From positions 1 to 24,124 of IMG/VR virus record IMGVR_UViG_3300010354_000641: 24,124 nt of DNA. One strand, given 5' to 3'. The translations under genes and the position numbers were made by a program. A model generated the notes under the pieces. That model did no database searches. It was not told the origin of the DNA and saw nothing but the letters and a program-made list of their open reading frames with translations. Below are positions 5,140-21,436 of the stretch, in pieces. The stretch's first letter is position 1. The number at the start of each line of letters is the position of its first letter. Origin of the DNA: a virus.

Positions 5140-6317
5140 TGGCACTGCTGATCCGCAACAGCTTCCTGCTGGCGAAGGCTGAAACCACCTACGGCACGCT
5201 GGGTACCGCAATCGCTGCTACCGATGCGGTGAAGATCGTGAGCATGGAGGTGAACCCGATCACGGGCGAACGCGTCCAGCGCAACCTGATCAAAGGATTC
5301 CTCGGTGCTGACCGGCAACCGCTGACGAATGAGCATGTATCGGTGACGATCACCTTTGAATGGGGTGGATCTGGTGTTGCTGCTACCGCACCACGGTTCT
5401 CGCCGCTGCTGTTGGCAGCAGGCATGAATCTGACGAGCTCAGCTGAGATCACAGGTACTGCCCAGGCTGGGGCTGCAAATAGCATTACGCTTGCCTCTGG
5501 CGCCAGTGCTGTGACGGATGTCTATGTTGGCTATCCCATCATCATTACCAGTGGCACTGGTCAAGATCACGCTGGTGTGATTACGGCTTACAACGGTTCC
5601 ACAAAGGTTGCCACTGTGGTGCCGTCCACAGCGACGTTCGTGCCTGGTGCCAGCAGTGGCTACAAGATCCCAGCGCTGAGTCTGTACCAGCCGATCAGCA
5701 GCTTTGGTAATGGGTCCAGCTGCACGTTGGTCGCAGTGAAGGATCAGAATGTCCATCGGATCGAAGGTTTTCGCGGCAGCCCGGCATTGAATGCACCGTT
5801 AAATGCTTATGGCACTTTCACGATCACTGGTGTAGGCCGATACGTGACACCAACCGCAAAATCTACTGAGTCGTACACCTACGGCGATCAAGCCCAGCCT
5901 GTGCCAGTGACACCAAAGCACACGAAAGCGCTGCGGTTCCAGAGCTTTGGGCCATGTTCTGAAGGGTTTACGTTCGACTGGGGACTGTCAACAACGTTCC
6001 GTTCATTAATTGGTTGCACAACGGAAGCGCTGATTACGGATCGCCCAAATCCCAATGGTACGTTGACCATTGAAAACCCATCAGTTGCTACGAAGAATTT
6101 CTTCACCGCAGCTGCTGATAATACCGGCGCCAGTGATGGGCCGTTCCTTGTTCAGCAGGGTACAACTGAAACCCAGAGCACGATCTTTTATGCACCCAAG
6201 TGTGCGATTAGTGGTGACCTTAGCTTCAGTGATACTGATGGTGTTGACATGATGCAGATTCCATTCACTGCACTGCCAACCAGCGGTAACGACGAAACCA
6301 GACTGATCTTCTACTGA
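5139..6317 (+). CDS. Major tail tube protein (lambda V-like), with inserted beta domain
   Basis: A 392-residue tail tube subunit. The start 'MALLIRNSFLLAKAETTYGT' is the hallmark opening of siphovirus tail tube proteins, and 'NEHVSVTITFEWGGSG' and the C-terminal 'KCAISGDLSFSDTDGVDMMQ', 'IPFTALPTSGNDETRLIFY' strands fit the tube core. Residues about 105-177 ('GTAQAGAANSITLASGASAV' through 'GASSGYKI') look like a separate beta domain of a type I recognise from many unrelated phage surface proteins, inserted in the tube fold. The protein is longer than many tube proteins for this reason. TGATG overlaps couple it to the tiny gene upstream and to the tail chaperone downstream. Confidence 0.85.
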   Translation: MALLIRNSFLLAKAETTYGTLGTAIAATDAVKIVSMEVNPITGERVQRNLIKGFLGADRQPLTNEHVSVTITFEWGGSGVAATAPRFSPLLLAAGMNLTSSAEITGTAQAGAANSITLASGASAVTDVYVGYPIIITSGTGQDHAGVITAYNGSTKVATVVPSTATFVPGASSGYKIPALSLYQPISSFGNGSSCTLVAVKDQNVHRIEGFRGSPALNAPLNAYGTFTITGVGRYVTPTAKSTESYTYGDQAQPVPVTPKHTKALRFQSFGPCSEGFTFDWGLSTTFRSLIGCTTEALITDRPNPNGTLTIENPSVATKNFFTAAADNTGASDGPFLVQQGTTETQSTIFYAPKCAISGDLSFSDTDGVDMMQIPFTALPTSGNDETRLIFY

Positions 6318-6778
6318 TGTTTCATCTCTATCAACCGGACTACATTGAGTGGCCGGTATCTGTTGATCTTCCCGCTAAAGGCGGCGTGAAGAAGGCGTAT
6401 AAGCTCACGGCACATTTTCGTGTACTGGATCAGGAGGACTGCCAAGAGCTGCAGGATCAGCATAATCAGATGCTGGTGGCCTTACGTCGTCGGCTGCAAG
6501 CATTGCAGGGGTATAGCAGTGATGCAGAGGCCGAGGATGCGATGACCGCACCATTGCCCTGTAGCTATCAAGATCTGGCTGATGCGGTGTTATGCGGCTG
6601 GGGTGAGGAAGTTGTTGATGAGGCTGGTGAACCGGTGGAGTTTAATGACGTGAGTAAAGCACGGTTTTATCGAATCCAGGGTGCTGCTGCTGCGGTCTTT
6701 AACGCATGGACCGAAAGCCTCGGCACACCAACTGAAAAGAGTGCTGCAAAGGCCGGAGGATTTAGAGCAAAAAACTGA
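6317..6778 (+). CDS. Tail assembly chaperone, short form (lambda G-like)
   Basis: The zero-frame product is 153 residues and close in length to lambda gpG. It starts 'MFHLYQPDYIEWPVSVDLPA', followed by a strand-rich N-terminal domain ('KKAYKLTAHFRVLDQEDCQE') and helices, including a 'YQDLADAVLCGWGEEVVDEA' segment usual in tail chaperones. These act before assembly by binding the tape measure protein and recruiting tail tube subunits. The gene lies between tube and tape measure, the canonical place. It ends in GCA AAA AAC TGA, where a slippery heptamer lets some ribosomes continue into the -1 frame (see the G-T entry). Confidence 0.82.
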   Translation: MFHLYQPDYIEWPVSVDLPAKGGVKKAYKLTAHFRVLDQEDCQELQDQHNQMLVALRRRLQALQGYSSDAEAEDAMTAPLPCSYQDLADAVLCGWGEEVVDEAGEPVEFNDVSKARFYRIQGAAAAVFNAWTESLGTPTEKSAAKAGGFRAKN

Positions 6779-7119
6779 TCGGTGCGGCGCGGTGTATCGC
6801 CGCTGCCGCAAAGGGTGTACCAGCTGATGATGGCAAGGATGCGGCTGATGCTGCAGCGGTATTTGGCTTGGCGGTTCCGGAAGCACCGGATGAACCTGAA
6901 TCCTATGGGTTGCTGCCCGAGAACCTAGATGTGGTGATCTGGTTTCTGAAGATGCAAACGCAGTGGCGTGTTGGCATCAATGGCGCTACCGGTATGGATT
7001 ATGGAGTGTTTCTGTATTGGGCAAAGGAAGAAGGCGTCAAGCGTGGTGATCGTGTGTGGATGCTGGATGATTTACGGTTGATGGAACATGAGTTCTTGAG
7101 TGTGGTGCATAGTGGGTAA
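6317..7119 (+). CDS. Tail assembly chaperone, long form made by -1 frameshift (lambda G-T-like)
   Basis: Slipping back one base at A AAA AAC (6769-6775) joins the 153-codon G frame to a further 114 codons read from CTG at 6775 to the TGA at 7117-7119, giving about 267 residues (lambda G-T is about 279). The downstream frame has no ATG or GTG near its beginning. The only early start-like codon is a TTG at 6868 deep inside conserved-looking sequence, and the frame is open right through the heptamer. The T part includes 'PESYGLLPENLDVVIWFLKM' and 'TGMDYGVFLYWAKEEGVKRG', resembling helices of tail chaperone C-terminal domains. A GC-only stem lies 8 nt downstream of the heptamer. Confidence 0.85.
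6769..6803 (+). promoter_or_regulatory. Programmed -1 frameshift signal: A AAA AAC heptamer plus downstream stem
   Basis: The heptamer A AAA AAC (6769-6775) is in the correct phase (gcA AAA AAC tga), with the G stop codon immediately after. An 8-nt spacer follows. Then a perfect 6-bp GC stem, GCGGCG (6784-6789) with CGCCGC (6798-6803), closes an 8-nt loop. Heptamer type, phase, spacer and stem all match the standard prokaryotic -1 arrangement used by lambda-type phages for G/G-T. Further pairing (a pseudoknot) was not evident by eye. Confidence 0.85.
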
Positions 7120-7148: not shown

Positions 7149-10040
7149 ATGGCCCAGATGAGCCTAGATACGGCCATCCGGCTCAGTGCTGAGGTAAAAG
7201 GTGGTGGGAATATCGATCGTGTGAAGCGGTCGTTGCAAGATCTAGCGCAGGGCAGCAGGACAACTGCTAAGGATATGGATACGTTGCGTTCAGCAACGTT
7301 TCAGTTCGCACGTGCTAATGATGGCACGATTGCTGGCATCAAGAGTAGCATCGGTGCTTTCCGTGGCCTGCAGGAACAAGCCAAGATCGGCAGCCGTGAA
7401 TTTCAGCGATATGGAGCTGAGATCCAGAAGTTAGAGGCAAAACTGAACGGCCTTGATGACGCAGCACGCCGTTCAAATCCAGGTCTGATGGGCTTGGCTG
7501 GTGCTGCTAAGAATCTGATTGCAGCCTATGCCGGGATTGAAACCGTAAGATTTGTGTTCGGAAAAACAGCTGAACTTGAAACTCAGACACGTAGTTTGCA
7601 GGTCCTTACGGGCAGTGTGGAGCGTGCTAAGCAGATCATTCAAGAGCTGCAGCAGCTTGGTGCGATAACACCATTCACCAGCACAGAGCTGATTGAGACT
7701 GCAAAGCGTTTGCAGGCATTTGGTGTTGAGACTGCCAATGTTGTTGATACCACTCGTCGTCTTGCGGACGTAAGTGGTGCAACTGGAGCTAATCTGCAAG
7801 AGCTAGCAACAGCCTATGGTCAAGTGCAGGCCAAAGGGCGTTTGCAAGGTGAAGAGCTGCTGCAGTTCCAAGAGCGCGGCGTTGCGCTACAGGAAGTGCT
7901 GAGGAAGGAATATGGGCTTAGTGGTGCTGAATTTCAGAAAGGACTAGAGAAAGGACAGATCAGTGCAGAAGCTGTTGAATATGCGTTGATTAAGCTAACA
8001 GACACCGGTGGCAAGTATGCAAATGGCGCAATCGCGCAAAGCACAACGCTAAGCGGTAGGTTATCTACGCTGACTGATGGCGTTGAGCAGTTGGCACGAA
8101 CCATTGGGGCTGCCCTGTCGCCAGCGATCAGAACGGTATTAAATGAGGCAACGTTTGCTGTAAATCAGATCAACCAGCTGATAGGTGCTGGAGCCAGAGC
8201 TAAGTCGTTTGGCTTAGATCAGACGCAACGTAAACAGGTTTTAGATCAAGCAACCAGAGAAGCAGAAGACATCGTAAACCGCCGCAATATCCGAGATCCG
8301 TTCGAGCGTAACCGTCAGTTTCAGGAAATCAGATCTCAGCGTGAACGTGACCTAATCGAATCCTATGGCTACCGCACCGGGCAGATCAAGCCACCTGCAG
8401 CGGCACCACAGGCGATGAGTACGCCACCACCACTGGTAGGCGCCAAGACAGGCGGCAGCAGTGCTGGTGGATCTTCTGGCCGTGCTGGTACTGGCTCATC
8501 ACCCAAGTTCGAGCTATCCAGTCGTGGCCGTGCCTTAGTGACTGCTGCGCAGAAACTTGGTGTCAGCCCGCTGGATCTCGCCACAATTATCAGCTTTGAA
8601 ACCGGCGGTACATTCAACCCGTCCAAGTTCGGTGGTGCTGGTGGCAACTACATGGGACTGATTCAGTTTGGTGCAAATGAACGCAAAGCGTATGGTGCAC
8701 GACCTGGGCAGTCCTTTGAAGAGCAGGTCACTGGCCCTGTTGTGCGTTACTTTCAAGATCGGTTTAAGGGTGCTGGCATGAGCACTCAAGGTGCTGACCT
8801 GTTGACGTTGTATCGCACAGTGCTGGGTGGAAACCCAAAAGCCAGCCTTGATGCAAAGGATTCATTTGGTACATCACCACGTAGTGGTGTCTCACGAATG
8901 GCGCCACATCGCCAGAAGGCATTGAATACATTCTTCGGCGGATCAGTCGCAAATGTTGGATATGGTGCTGGAGATCGAGCAGAAGCTGCAAACGAAGCAT
9001 TTGATCGTTTGCGCGAACAAGAACAACGCATTGCGAGCATCGTCCGTGAACGTTCTGCAGAAATCAGTCTGATGGGCATCAAGGTCAACATGGAAGAAAA
9101 GATTGCTGATGCTCAGACTCAAGGTGACAAGCTGCTAGAACGAAGGATGGAAGGCCAGCAGCGGCAAATTGATATTCAGACTGAGTATGCAAAGCTGTTG
9201 GCTGATCCAGCCAACCAAGATATCAGGATTCAAGAGATATTAACCACTCAAGGACTGATAGCGCTAAAAGCAGAACAGGTACGCACTGAGCGTGAGCTGC
9301 AAGCCATTGACCGTGAACGCGCAGAAGAGCAACGCAAGTCAACACCTGGCTTTATCCTTGGTGAAGCATACGATCAATCCGTTAAAAAACTAAGGGATCT
9401 CACAAATGCGGGTAATATCCTTTCGGCTTCGGCAGATAGTATTGGCAGTTCGTTTGGTTCCGCATTTAAGGATCTGATTACAGGTGCAACATCAGCGCAA
9501 GAAGCACTTGCCAAGATGTTTCAGAGCATTGCTGACAGCTTTGCTGATATGGCAGCACAGATGATTGCTGAATGGATCAAGATGCAGATCCTTGGGATTG
9601 TTAAGTCAATCTTTGGTGCTGTTGCAGGTGGTTTTTCGTTTGGTGGCAGTAGCGGTGGGTTCAACCTTTCTGGTTTTGAGATGCCTAGCTACATGGCCGG
9701 CACCTCAATTCCGAGCGGCTTCGCCAATGGTGCTGCATTTGATCGCGGCATTGTTGATTCACCAACCCTATTCAAGTTTGCCAATGGCGGCGCAATGCGC
9801 ACTGGCCTGATGGGCGAAGCTGGACCAGAAGCCATCCTTCCATTGAAGCGTGGCGTGGATGGCAAATTAGGTGTTTCTGGTGGTGGTAATACTACAAGTG
9901 TTACTGTCAATGTTGATGCCTCTGGTTCAAATGTCCAAGGCGATAGCGATCGCAGTCAGCAACTAGGGCGAGCGATCTCACAAGCTGTGCAAACTGAATT
10001 GATCAAACAAAAACGGCCCGGCGGCCTTCTTGCTTCATAA
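7149..10040 (+). CDS. Tail tape measure protein with embedded lysozyme-like domain (lambda H-like)
   Basis: A 963-residue protein that sets tail length and passes into the host envelope during DNA entry. Residues about 1-125 are helical. About 130-330 match the tape-measure N-terminal domain ('QQLGAITPFTSTELIETAKR', 'LADVSGATGANLQELATAYG'). A Gly/Ser/Pro linker at about 415-455 leads to a lysozyme or transglycosylase-like domain at about 457-600 ('LGVSPLDLATIISFETGGTF', 'YMGLIQFG'), with Glu484 as likely catalytic acid. Coiled coil follows (about 610-720), then a hydrophobic patch ('IAEWIKMQILGIVKSIFGAV') and a lambda-H-like end ('MGEAGPEAILPLKRG'). It follows G-T by 29 nt and precedes M by 2 nt. 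The enzymatic activity is inferred from motif resemblance. Confidence 0.9.
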   Translation: MAQMSLDTAIRLSAEVKGGGNIDRVKRSLQDLAQGSRTTAKDMDTLRSATFQFARANDGTIAGIKSSIGAFRGLQEQAKIGSREFQRYGAEIQKLEAKLNGLDDAARRSNPGLMGLAGAAKNLIAAYAGIETVRFVFGKTAELETQTRSLQVLTGSVERAKQIIQELQQLGAITPFTSTELIETAKRLQAFGVETANVVDTTRRLADVSGATGANLQELATAYGQVQAKGRLQGEELLQFQERGVALQEVLRKEYGLSGAEFQKGLEKGQISAEAVEYALIKLTDTGGKYANGAIAQSTTLSGRLSTLTDGVEQLARTIGAALSPAIRTVLNEATFAVNQINQLIGAGARAKSFGLDQTQRKQVLDQATREAEDIVNRRNIRDPFERNRQFQEIRSQRERDLIESYGYRTGQIKPPAAAPQAMSTPPPLVGAKTGGSSAGGSSGRAGTGSSPKFELSSRGRALVTAAQKLGVSPLDLATIISFETGGTFNPSKFGGAGGNYMGLIQFGANERKAYGARPGQSFEEQVTGPVVRYFQDRFKGAGMSTQGADLLTLYRTVLGGNPKASLDAKDSFGTSPRSGVSRMAPHRQKALNTFFGGSVANVGYGAGDRAEAANEAFDRLREQEQRIASIVRERSAEISLMGIKVNMEEKIADAQTQGDKLLERRMEGQQRQIDIQTEYAKLLADPANQDIRIQEILTTQGLIALKAEQVRTERELQAIDRERAEEQRKSTPGFILGEAYDQSVKKLRDLTNAGNILSASADSIGSSFGSAFKDLITGATSAQEALAKMFQSIADSFADMAAQMIAEWIKMQILGIVKSIFGAVAGGFSFGGSSGGFNLSGFEMPSYMAGTSIPSGFANGAAFDRGIVDSPTLFKFANGGAMRTGLMGEAGPEAILPLKRGVDGKLGVSGGGNTTSVTVNVDASGSNVQGDSDRSQQLGRAISQAVQTELIKQKRPGGLLAS

Positions 10041-19565: not shown

Positions 19566-19826
19566 GTGATTGAAGTTCTAGCAGCACTGGCTGGTGCTTC
19601 AATTTCAGTCATTGCCATGATCTCTGGTTCCAGCCTCAAGCGATCTAGTGAAGGCCGTGAAGCACTCGTAAGGCTAACGGTCGGGCTGGAGAGCATCTCC
19701 AACAAGCTGGAACAGCTGCACGTAGACATTCGTAGTGATCGAAAGGAAATCTTCAGCAGGATCGGTACGCTTGAAACTCGTGTGGCACGGCTCGAAGCGC
19801 ATTCCAGCGAATCCATTCATTCATAG
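19566..19826 (+). CDS. Small membrane-anchored coiled-coil protein (86 residues, GTG start)
   Basis: The N-terminal 20 or so residues ('MIEVLAALAGASISVIAMIS') form one hydrophobic segment. The rest is charged and helical, with heptad-like spacing in 'GLESISNKLEQLHVDIRSDR' and 'IFSRIGTLETRVARLEAHSS', so a membrane-anchored coiled coil is likely. Similar proteins occur near lysis genes of cyanophages. One transmembrane segment plus a coiled coil would suit a pinholin-like or spanin-like helper, but no diagnostic motif is present. The start is GTG with no strong ribosome binding site. Confidence 0.68.
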   Translation: MIEVLAALAGASISVIAMISGSSLKRSSEGREALVRLTVGLESISNKLEQLHVDIRSDRKEIFSRIGTLETRVARLEAHSSESIHS

Positions 19827-19852: not shown

Positions 19853-19996
19853 GTGGATTTCCTTAATCACCCCGCTACCTGGATTGTGATCGCAGCAGCG
19901 TCTGAGCTGATCGGCCTCAATCCAAAGATGAAGGCTAACAGCATCATCCAGCTGGTATTCCAGGCGCTCTATGCCCTGAAGCCCGCAAAAAAGTAA
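19853..19996 (+). CDS. Small hydrophobic/amphipathic phage protein (47 residues, GTG start)
   Basis: The product begins MDFLNHPATWIVIAAASELI, continues with 'GLNPKMKANSIIQLVFQALY' and ends 'ALKPAKK'. Two hydrophobic helices joined by a short polar turn suggest membrane association. I recognise this as a type of short conserved protein near cyanophage lysis genes. The frame ends GCA AAA AAG TAA, and the -1 frame is open from there to the endolysin start, so a longer frameshift product is possible (next entry). Function is unknown; a holin-like part is one possibility. Confidence 0.7.
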   Translation: MDFLNHPATWIVIAAASELIGLNPKMKANSIIQLVFQALYALKPAKK

Positions 19997-20241
19997 TCAC
20001 CACGCCGGTCAGCATCCTTATCCCAATCATCGGAAACAAAGATCGGGTTCAGGCGATCAAAAATGAACTGCTGATTGAATCGCGTCTTGATGCGTCCATT
20101 GAAGCCTTTCATGCCACGCAACCACCGGCCATGCCCGAGCCAGTGATCAGCGAACAACCGATCAACCCCGAGCTGCAGACCGGCGACAGCGCCCTTCTGG
20201 GCGGCGAGCTACGCATTCAGTCCCCATGGAGCCATGACTAA
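19853..20241 (+). CDS. Candidate -1 frameshift product of the 47-residue gene (about 129 residues)
   Basis: The -1 frame is open from 19939 to a TAA at 20239-20241 that overlaps the endolysin start (ATGACTAA). It contains no ATG, GTG or TTG before an ATG at 20131, so most of it has no standard start of its own. The zero-frame gene ends on A AAA AAG (19987-19993) in correct phase for -1 slippage, the same heptamer as in E. coli dnaX. The added 82 residues begin 'VITTPVSILIPIIGNKDRVQ', then a helix ('AIKNELLIESRLDASIEAFH') and a proline-rich acidic tail. No strong stem or upstream Shine-Dalgarno stimulator was seen. Alternatives are a miscalled A-run, a non-standard start, or a decayed gene. 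Confidence 0.45.
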
Positions 20242-21436
20242 AGCCCCAGTCCGTTTTGCGGATCTGTTCCGTTACTGGCGTGGTAAGCCTCACCAGATGG
20301 CAGCGGTTGAACTCCTCGGTCGTGAGATTCCGATTGAACTACTTGGTCGTGATCAGGAATGGTTCAAGGTCTGGTCTCAGGCCGGCAAGTCCCCCGAGCC
20401 CGAATGGCTGGCGCCAGCTGAAAACATCATCAAGCAGTTTGAGGGCTGCCGACTGGTGGCTTATCAATGTGCGGCAGGTCACTGGACGATTGGATGGGGT
20501 GCCACAAACCTGATTGATCGCCCCGTCCAGCAAGGCGACAAGATCAGCGAACAAATGGCCGATGACCTTCTCCAGAACACGGTGGAGATCACCGCCCGCG
20601 AGCTGTTCAAGCTGCTGCCGATGGCGGCCAAGTGGCCAGGCCATCAAAGCGCAGCATTGATCAGCTGGATGTTCAATGTCGGCAGTGGTGCAGCACGGGA
20701 CTCCACCCTGCGCACAAGGCTCCTTGCTGGTCAGGATCCAAAGCAGGTCATCCGCGAAGAACTCCCGAAATGGGATAAAGCCAACGGCAAACCACTACCT
20801 GGCCTGACCGGTCGGCGTGCTGCAGAAGTAGCGCTATTTCTTGGAGCTGAACCCGTAAAAAAGCCCAGTGACCACGGCAACCCCCTTCAGGTGCCGTGGT
20901 ATGCGCAGATGGATTCAGCTACCTCGCAAGGCGCTCGGATGTGCTACAGCAGCTCCTGCGCCATGCTGCTTCAATACCTCAAGCCTGGCACCTTGCCTGG
21001 CGCCAATGGTGATGACCTCTACCTGAAGCGGGTCCAACAGTACGGCGACACCACCGAAGCCGCTGCGCAGATCCGTGCGCTCAGTAGCTACGGCATCCGC
21101 GCCACGATGACCAAGACCGCCACCGTTGAGACGCTGCGCAAACAGATTGATGCGGGTATCCCAGTGCCATGCGGATACATCCATCGTGGGCCGCTCAACC
21201 AGCCATCAGGTGGTGGCCACTGGCTGATCGTGGTGGGTTACACCACCAATCAACTGATCGTGCATGACCCCTATGGCACGATGAACCTGGATACCGGCGA
21301 ACGAGCCAGCAGCGTGGCACGGTTCGCCAAGTACGACCTGAATGATTTCGTGCTTCGCTGGTCCGTCGAACCCGCCGGTCCCGGCACCTACCGGCATGTC
21401 CCCGGTCGTGGCTGGGCGATCATCGCGCAGCGTTAG
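20234..21436 (+). CDS. Two-domain endolysin: GH24-type lysozyme plus C39-like cysteine peptidase domain
   Basis: A 400-residue lysis enzyme. Residues 1-50 are a helical leader ('FADLFRYWRGKPHQMAAVEL'). Residues about 60-210 are a phage lysozyme of the T4/P21 type with a complete catalytic arrangement Glu70-x8-Cys79-x5-Thr85 ('QFEGCRLVAY', 'GHWTIGWGA'), where Cys replaces the Asp of T4 as in some lambdoid lysozymes. After a short linker, residues about 222-375 resemble a C39-type peptidase: 'VPWYAQMDSATSQGARMCYS' with Cys237 (or Cys242) as nucleophile, His329 in 'GGHWLIVVGY' and Asp345 in 'IVHDPYG'. No signal peptide is evident, so export needs a holin. It overlaps the upstream frame by 8 nt, and its TAG overlaps a minus-strand stop. 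Confidence 0.9.
   Translation: MTKAPVRFADLFRYWRGKPHQMAAVELLGREIPIELLGRDQEWFKVWSQAGKSPEPEWLAPAENIIKQFEGCRLVAYQCAAGHWTIGWGATNLIDRPVQQGDKISEQMADDLLQNTVEITARELFKLLPMAAKWPGHQSAALISWMFNVGSGAARDSTLRTRLLAGQDPKQVIREELPKWDKANGKPLPGLTGRRAAEVALFLGAEPVKKPSDHGNPLQVPWYAQMDSATSQGARMCYSSSCAMLLQYLKPGTLPGANGDDLYLKRVQQYGDTTEAAAQIRALSSYGIRATMTKTATVETLRKQIDAGIPVPCGYIHRGPLNQPSGGGHWLIVVGYTTNQLIVHDPYGTMNLDTGERASSVARFAKYDLNDFVLRWSVEPAGPGTYRHVPGRGWAIIAQR

Follow-up and report, generated by a model that had tools for sequence, protein, structure and literature searches.

Evidence for a conserved programmed -1 ribosomal frameshift in a small cyanophage gene that mostly lies beside the endolysin

The stretch of DNA analysed here, referred to below as the window, comprises positions 1 to 24,124 (24,124 nucleotides) of the viral record IMGVR_UViG_3300010354_000641. 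Near its endolysin gene lies a very short gene that stops immediately after a run of As, and in the -1 frame a longer reading frame runs on from that same point. Is this one gene that makes two proteins, a pair of overlapping genes, or a single gene that appears broken? All features of the locus are on the plus strand. The short gene (ORF1, positions 19853 to 19996) starts with GTG and encodes 47 amino acids. As an earlier note on this DNA had read it, it ends GCA AAA AAG TAA; the heptamer A AAA AAG (19987 to 19993) is directly 5' of the stop codon, in a register that fits tandem -1 slippage. The -1 frame is then open for 82 codons plus a stop (the extension, 19993 to 20241, with its TAA ending at 20241), and the first ATG, GTG or TTG in it lies 46 codons past the ORF1 stop, both also in agreement with the earlier reading. 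Joined at the heptamer, the two parts would encode a 129-amino acid fusion (19853 to 20241), a product to which the frame relation, the heptamer, and coding and synonymous constraint across relatives all point. The extension had been said to run exactly into the start of the endolysin gene; it does reach the endolysin ATG at 20234 but does not simply abut it, since that codon falls within the extension's last bases, giving an overlap of 8 nt. The endolysin (20234 to 21436, 400 amino acids) has Phage_lysozyme and Peptidase_C39_2 domain matches. On the other side of ORF1, positions 19566 to 19826 encode an 86-amino acid protein that matches phrog_26178, a family of unknown function, and that has a hydrophobic N terminus and then a coiled-coil-like helix (the coiled coil was read from the sequence). 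Proteins similar to it sit 5' of ORF1 in many relatives, and it is a possible candidate for a lysis partner of ORF1.

Relatives were gathered by three scans with ORF1 alignments, from which the best 80 of 310, the best 80 of 495 and the best 80 of 503 relatives were retained, so that all counts of relatives given here describe a sample of a larger family; three sequences from genome contigs and 17 from a cyanomyovirus query were added. The collection of 282 sequences yielded 265 ORF1 matches, of which 232 were distinct. A search of viral contigs with the extension gave 10 loci, and tblastn against phage records found the extension in 10 records and ORF1 in 14 (with some phages represented by more than one record); no close DNA relatives of the window were found among those phage records. 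An extension-profile match is present 3' of ORF1 in 177 of the 232 distinct relatives. In all 177 it is in the -1 frame, and in all 177 that frame is open through the ORF1 stop; none of the 177 gave a match in another frame, and no in-frame fusion of ORF1 to the extension was found among the 232. A search of host genomes matched only three metagenome-assembled contigs, which are probably phage contigs. These three (L103, L104 and L105) are cyanophage-like contigs placed in metagenome-assembled genomes that bear the labels Hyphomonadaceae, TMED88 and Blastopirellula, and their presence there is probably binning contamination.

Seven isolated Synechococcus phages, whose recorded taxonomy is Autographiviridae or unclassified tailed phages, have both parts in the -1 relation with a heptamer at the junction. 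The junction heptamer is AAAAAAG in KBS-S-2A, S-CBS1, WH11-B, S-B28 and 7B11-B and GGGAAAG in S-EIV1, while S-CBS3 has GGGAAAA and then AAAAAAG. In the deposited annotation of S-CBS3, S-CBS1 and S-EIV1 the extension has a CDS of its own that starts later, and in that of KBS-S-2A and S-B28 it is covered by no CDS. ORF1 is also found in the uncultured phage S37-C6, without the extension and without the heptamer, and in P60 an ORF1-like protein continues in frame into a different tail.

The heptamer, synonymous-codon and tree tests left out L159 (where the contig ends) and L020 (phage P60, with its other in-frame tail), as well as L273 and L274 (distant ORF1, GTG start). Seven relatives with a 42-amino acid extension that the profile had missed (L213, L216, L218, L221, L226, L245 and L247) were added on inspection; since every one of them has the heptamer, adding them favours the frameshift reading. 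An X_XXY_YYZ heptamer is present no more than three codons before the ORF1 stop in 180 of 182 relatives with an extension versus 3 of 46 without one, and these values become 173 of 175 versus 10 of 53 when the seven added relatives are removed. After clustering at 90% identity, 106 clusters with an extension have a heptamer and 2 have none, compared to 1 and 14, respectively, for clusters without an extension (p = 1.8e-15); at 80% identity the corresponding numbers are 31 and 0 versus 0 and 8 (p = 1.6e-8). We also built a quick DNA tree of ORF1 minus its last eight codons, which is weakly resolved because ORF1 is short; it contains eight independent supported pairs in which one member has the extension and the other lacks it, and on average the heptamer was concordant in 7.7 of these eight (median p = 0.008 by sign test). 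At the ends of control ORFs of at least 80 amino acids from the collected sequences, XXXAAAN or XXXTTTN was present in the last four codons in 22 of 2254 cases, and the ten control matches listed include the tail chaperone site of the window and one ORF1. The combination of heptamer and extension is far from a chance arrangement.

The heptamers themselves vary. The 182 extension-bearing relatives have AAAAAAG alone (110), CCCAAAG (45), GGGAAAA with AAAAAAG (19), CCCAAAA with AAAAAAG (3), GGGAAAG (2), AAAAAAA with AAAAAAG (1) or no canonical heptamer (2). The last two are L098 and L128, and L128 ends AAG AAG TGA. A separate group of three near-identical sequences (L182 to L184) has the heptamer in TTC CCA AAG, followed by a -1 frame of just 25 codons with a different sequence, perhaps through a recent replacement of the extension.

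The codons used at the slip site vary with the extension as well. Where ORF1 ends in Phe/Ile-Pro-Lys, the nucleotides are C CCA A in 46 of 47 relatives with an extension versus 3 of 28 without one, the latter being closely related sequences that reduce to 5 at 90% ORF1 identity, 4 of which lack CCA; the extension-less ends mostly use CCC, CCT or CCG for the same amino acid. At Lys-Lys sites the order is AAA AAG in 132 of 141, and 140 of the 141 have a preceding codon with A in third position. When that preceding codon encodes Gly it is GGA in 39 of 39 cases, whereas at other positions of ORF1 GGA makes up 8 of 139 Gly codons. These frozen synonymous codons (C CCA, AAA AAG and GGA) indicate nucleotide selection on the heptamer that goes beyond the needs of the protein and that tracks the extension; in relatives without an extension, the slip site has in most cases decayed by synonymous codon changes. 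The extension also bears the mark of coding. In 180 of the 182 extension-bearing relatives (two with cut extensions were left out) its dN/dS is 0.18 over 60 disjoint pairs, with 419, 245 and 1009 differences at the three codon positions, and it is 0.17 in the part before the first ATG, GTG or TTG (1181 codon comparisons). Between the window and L002, L003 and L004 the extension values are 0.085, 0.049 and 0.112, respectively. By these codon comparisons the extension is under purifying selection even 5' of its first possible start codon, and the value of 0.18 rules out a non-coding extension.

Sequence comparison establishes where the slip site is, which frame follows it and that the extension is constrained as a coding sequence. 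We consider it highly probable (about 0.9) that this gene yields two products through a programmed -1 ribosomal frameshift, by tandem slippage on X_XXY_YYZ. The earlier note had proposed such a frameshift for the window, and the conserved heptamer, the constant -1 frame, purifying selection and the synonymous freezing linked to the extension support it strongly. Ribosomes that do not slip would stop just past the heptamer and release the short ORF1 peptide, and ribosomes that slip back by one base would make ORF1 fused to the 82-residue domain (129 amino acids in the window). We infer both a useful rate of slippage and the identity of the minor product.

Might ribosomes instead terminate at the ORF1 stop and reinitiate in the -1 frame at or near it, so that the extension is made as a separate protein? 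The -1 codon that overlaps the stop would lend itself to this in many relatives, being CTG in 116, TTG in 11 and GTG in 4 of the 182, but in 51 of the 182, the window included, it is CTA, GTA or TTA, none of them a start codon, and the first ten extension codons contain no ATG, GTG or TTG in 143 of 180 relatives. Relatives in which the extension has a separate standard start, which the earlier note had held to speak against a frameshift, are represented by one odd pair of similar contigs, L273 and L274; the overlapping GTG and missing heptamer of this pair suit reinitiation, as does the GTG overlap created by AAG AAG TGA in L128. That mechanism leaves the heptamer and its frozen synonymous codons unexplained, however, and we consider it very unlikely. 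The pair deserves a description of its own: at about positions 1600 to 2100 these contigs encode a distant ORF1 homologue and then the same C-terminal domain, whose GTG overlaps the ORF1 stop, and this is possibly a two-gene version of the frameshift gene.

Slippage by the RNA polymerase on the A run, which would add a base to some mRNAs and allow in-frame reading of those, is suggested by the six As present at most sites, but runs of the CCCAAAG and GGGAAAG type are not substrates for polymerase slippage, and the relatives with these heptamers (45 and 2, respectively) contain no long homopolymer; it is less probable still than reinitiation. A sequencing error or a recently broken gene, whose true form would be one in-frame ORF, might be suspected from the window alone, a single metagenomic contig, given how often A6 and A7 are miscalled, but the same frame break is present in the seven isolate genomes and in 177 of 177 extension-matched contigs, no in-frame fusion was found among relatives, and the several different heptamers (AAAAAAG, CCCAAAG and GGGAAAG) exclude a homopolymer error, so that a seven-A run with simple in-frame fusion is ruled out and we give error or recent breakage practically no weight.

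In the dnaX case below the frameshift is assisted by nearby mRNA elements, and we looked for such elements here. Neither a Shine-Dalgarno (SD)-like element nor a downstream stem-loop was found at the site in the window, an SD-like element near the site was found in just 2 of 92 representatives, and Rfam gave no match. Downstream folding is slightly better than that of shuffled sequences, with a mean z of about -0.6 to -0.8 just 3' of the site, but this signal is not localised, since positions further downstream behave similarly. No conserved RNA stimulator of either type (SD-like element or downstream folding) was found across the representatives.

How does this gene compare with known systems? 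The window carries a standard tail-assembly-chaperone -1 frameshift of its own at 6317 to 7119, which the earlier note had implied by counting the present site as a second one: the ORF at 6317 to 6778 ends with A AAA AAC directly before its TGA at 6778, the -1 frame is open for 114 codons, a stem-loop is predicted 7 nt downstream, and the gene is in the usual place 5' of the tape measure gene. ORF1 resembles tail assembly chaperones of the lambda gpG/gpG-T type in having an X_XXY_YYZ heptamer just before the stop, a long -1 extension and two products that would share an N terminus. It differs from them in that it lies between tail-fibre genes and the endolysin and not 5' of the tape measure gene, in that the proteins are unrelated by the family searches made, and in the much smaller size of its 47-amino acid product; neither ORF1 nor the extension has a match to a tail family, and the locus is far from the tape measure gene (7149 to 10040). 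With dnaX the gene shares the heptamer A AAA AAG, which is present in the window and in 133 of the 182 extension-bearing relatives. In dnaX, frameshifting shortens the product with the help of an SD-like element upstream and a hairpin downstream, whereas the cyanophage frameshift would lengthen the product and neither stimulator was found. The lambda S105/S107 holin and antiholin are made from two start codons of one small gene and differ at one end. The cyanophage gene is similar in that it too is one small gene with two products that would differ at one end and may be opposed, but here the difference would be a C-terminal extension added by frameshifting and the function is a predicted one. 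The MS2 lysis gene offers a further parallel, as a phage lysis gene in a frame that overlaps another gene (coat), and an early paper ascribed its expression to a frameshift; the ribosome restarts there and makes a separate lysis protein, whereas the cyanophage gene indicates a fusion made from a conserved heptamer.

The extension also resembles phrog_3316 proteins of cyanomyoviruses (S-CRM01 g111 and, by fold, the S-PM2 protein 'T4-like GC 852'), which have the same C-terminal domain ending in LGGEMRLxxPW; S-CRM01 g111 is also one gene away from an endolysin. They differ in having another N terminus and in being read from a single unbroken ORF, so that no frameshift is needed. Cyanomyovirus-like proteins of this kind, with the LGGEMRLxxPW domain end, other N termini and a single uninterrupted frame, were also present among the collected sequences (L267 to L272, L021 and L022).

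What might the two products do? Searches of Pfam, NCBIfam, PHROGs and PDB sequences linked neither ORF1 nor the extension to a known function, and the PHROGs matches were to function-unknown families only. The absence of a match to known holin families in Pfam or NCBIfam weighs little, since many holins have no family match. The structure model of ORF1 is a helical hairpin, and its best 19-residue Kyte-Doolittle mean, used to look for a transmembrane segment, is at least 1.6 in 66 of 91 cases and 1.14 in the window; the earlier note's description of the short product as membrane-associated is plausible in the family as a whole, but the ORF1 of the window itself gives it little support. For the extension, AlphaFold predicts a helix at residues 10 to 41 and a small beta domain with strands at 51 to 54 and 73 to 76; pLDDT averages 82 overall and, block by block, 88 to 95 across residues 31 to 80. 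A fold search with this model found no PDB match and, in a viral library, two matches at E <= 0.001, both without a name; the third match is a Synechococcus phage protein, and the best matches include S-PM2 'T4-like GC 852'.

The position of the gene suggests a part in lysis. In the window it is in the lysis cassette, with the endolysin as the next ORF. Among the 92 representatives, 13 yielded no following ORF; of the other 79, at least 70 have an endolysin-family match in that ORF. In podoviruses the gene stands 5' of the terminase small subunit, which is the place of the T7 holin. From its position and its helical-hairpin character, we think that the gene is probably used in lysis, with considerable room for doubt, and, judging by position, one gene may supply two lysis regulators, as the earlier note had supposed. 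More tentatively, the short helical-hairpin peptide could be a holin or the partner of one, and the frameshifted form, which would carry an acidic helix-plus-beta domain, a low-dose antiholin-like regulator or adapter; the slip rate would then set the ratio of short to long product. There is also a substantial chance that the frameshift is real and the gene has nothing to do with lysis, encoding for example a virion, membrane-remodelling or host-takeover protein between the tail and lysis genes. Consistent with this, family searches gave no known function and fold searches no PDB match, podovirus copies lie next to a packaging gene, and the lysozyme annotated in S-EIV1 is encoded on the opposite strand and is not an immediate neighbour of the gene, which weakens the link to lysis. 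The frequency of endolysin families in the next ORF, the T7 holin-like place of the podovirus copies and the presence of an endolysin near the cyanomyovirus relatives with the same C-terminal domain argue against it.

Tail assembly chaperones are the main known case of conserved -1 frameshifting in dsDNA phages, and a few phage capsid genes use it as well. We found no report of this gene in the literature on cyanophage frameshifting, holin frameshifts or cyanophage holins, antiholins and spanins, a body of work represented here mostly by papers outside subscription journals. Passages from five papers (PMC5009743, PMC10885494, PMC6157547, PMC3556154 and PMC3483164) mention frameshifts in tail chaperone genes as well as the lysis gene of MS2, but not a frameshift in a lysis gene of a tailed phage. 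The cyanophage gene adds a second conserved frameshift gene family, with 106 ORF1 clusters at 90% identity, mostly beside an endolysin. The mechanism is a known one, new in a gene family of its own, and its slip site seems to have been kept across very different cyanophages without being noticed, in deposited genomes that give the extension a later start or miss it altogether. The several heptamers, the repeated loss or gain and the frozen synonymous codons of the family make up a large natural data set on the evolution of a frameshift site, and the gene is a well-defined and testable handle on cyanophage lysis. It is possible, though less likely than not, that several kinds of cyanophage set their lysis clock by frameshifting, with a short pore former and a long form that restrains or targets the short one; if this were true, it would be the first conserved fusion-making -1 frameshift in dsDNA phage lysis.
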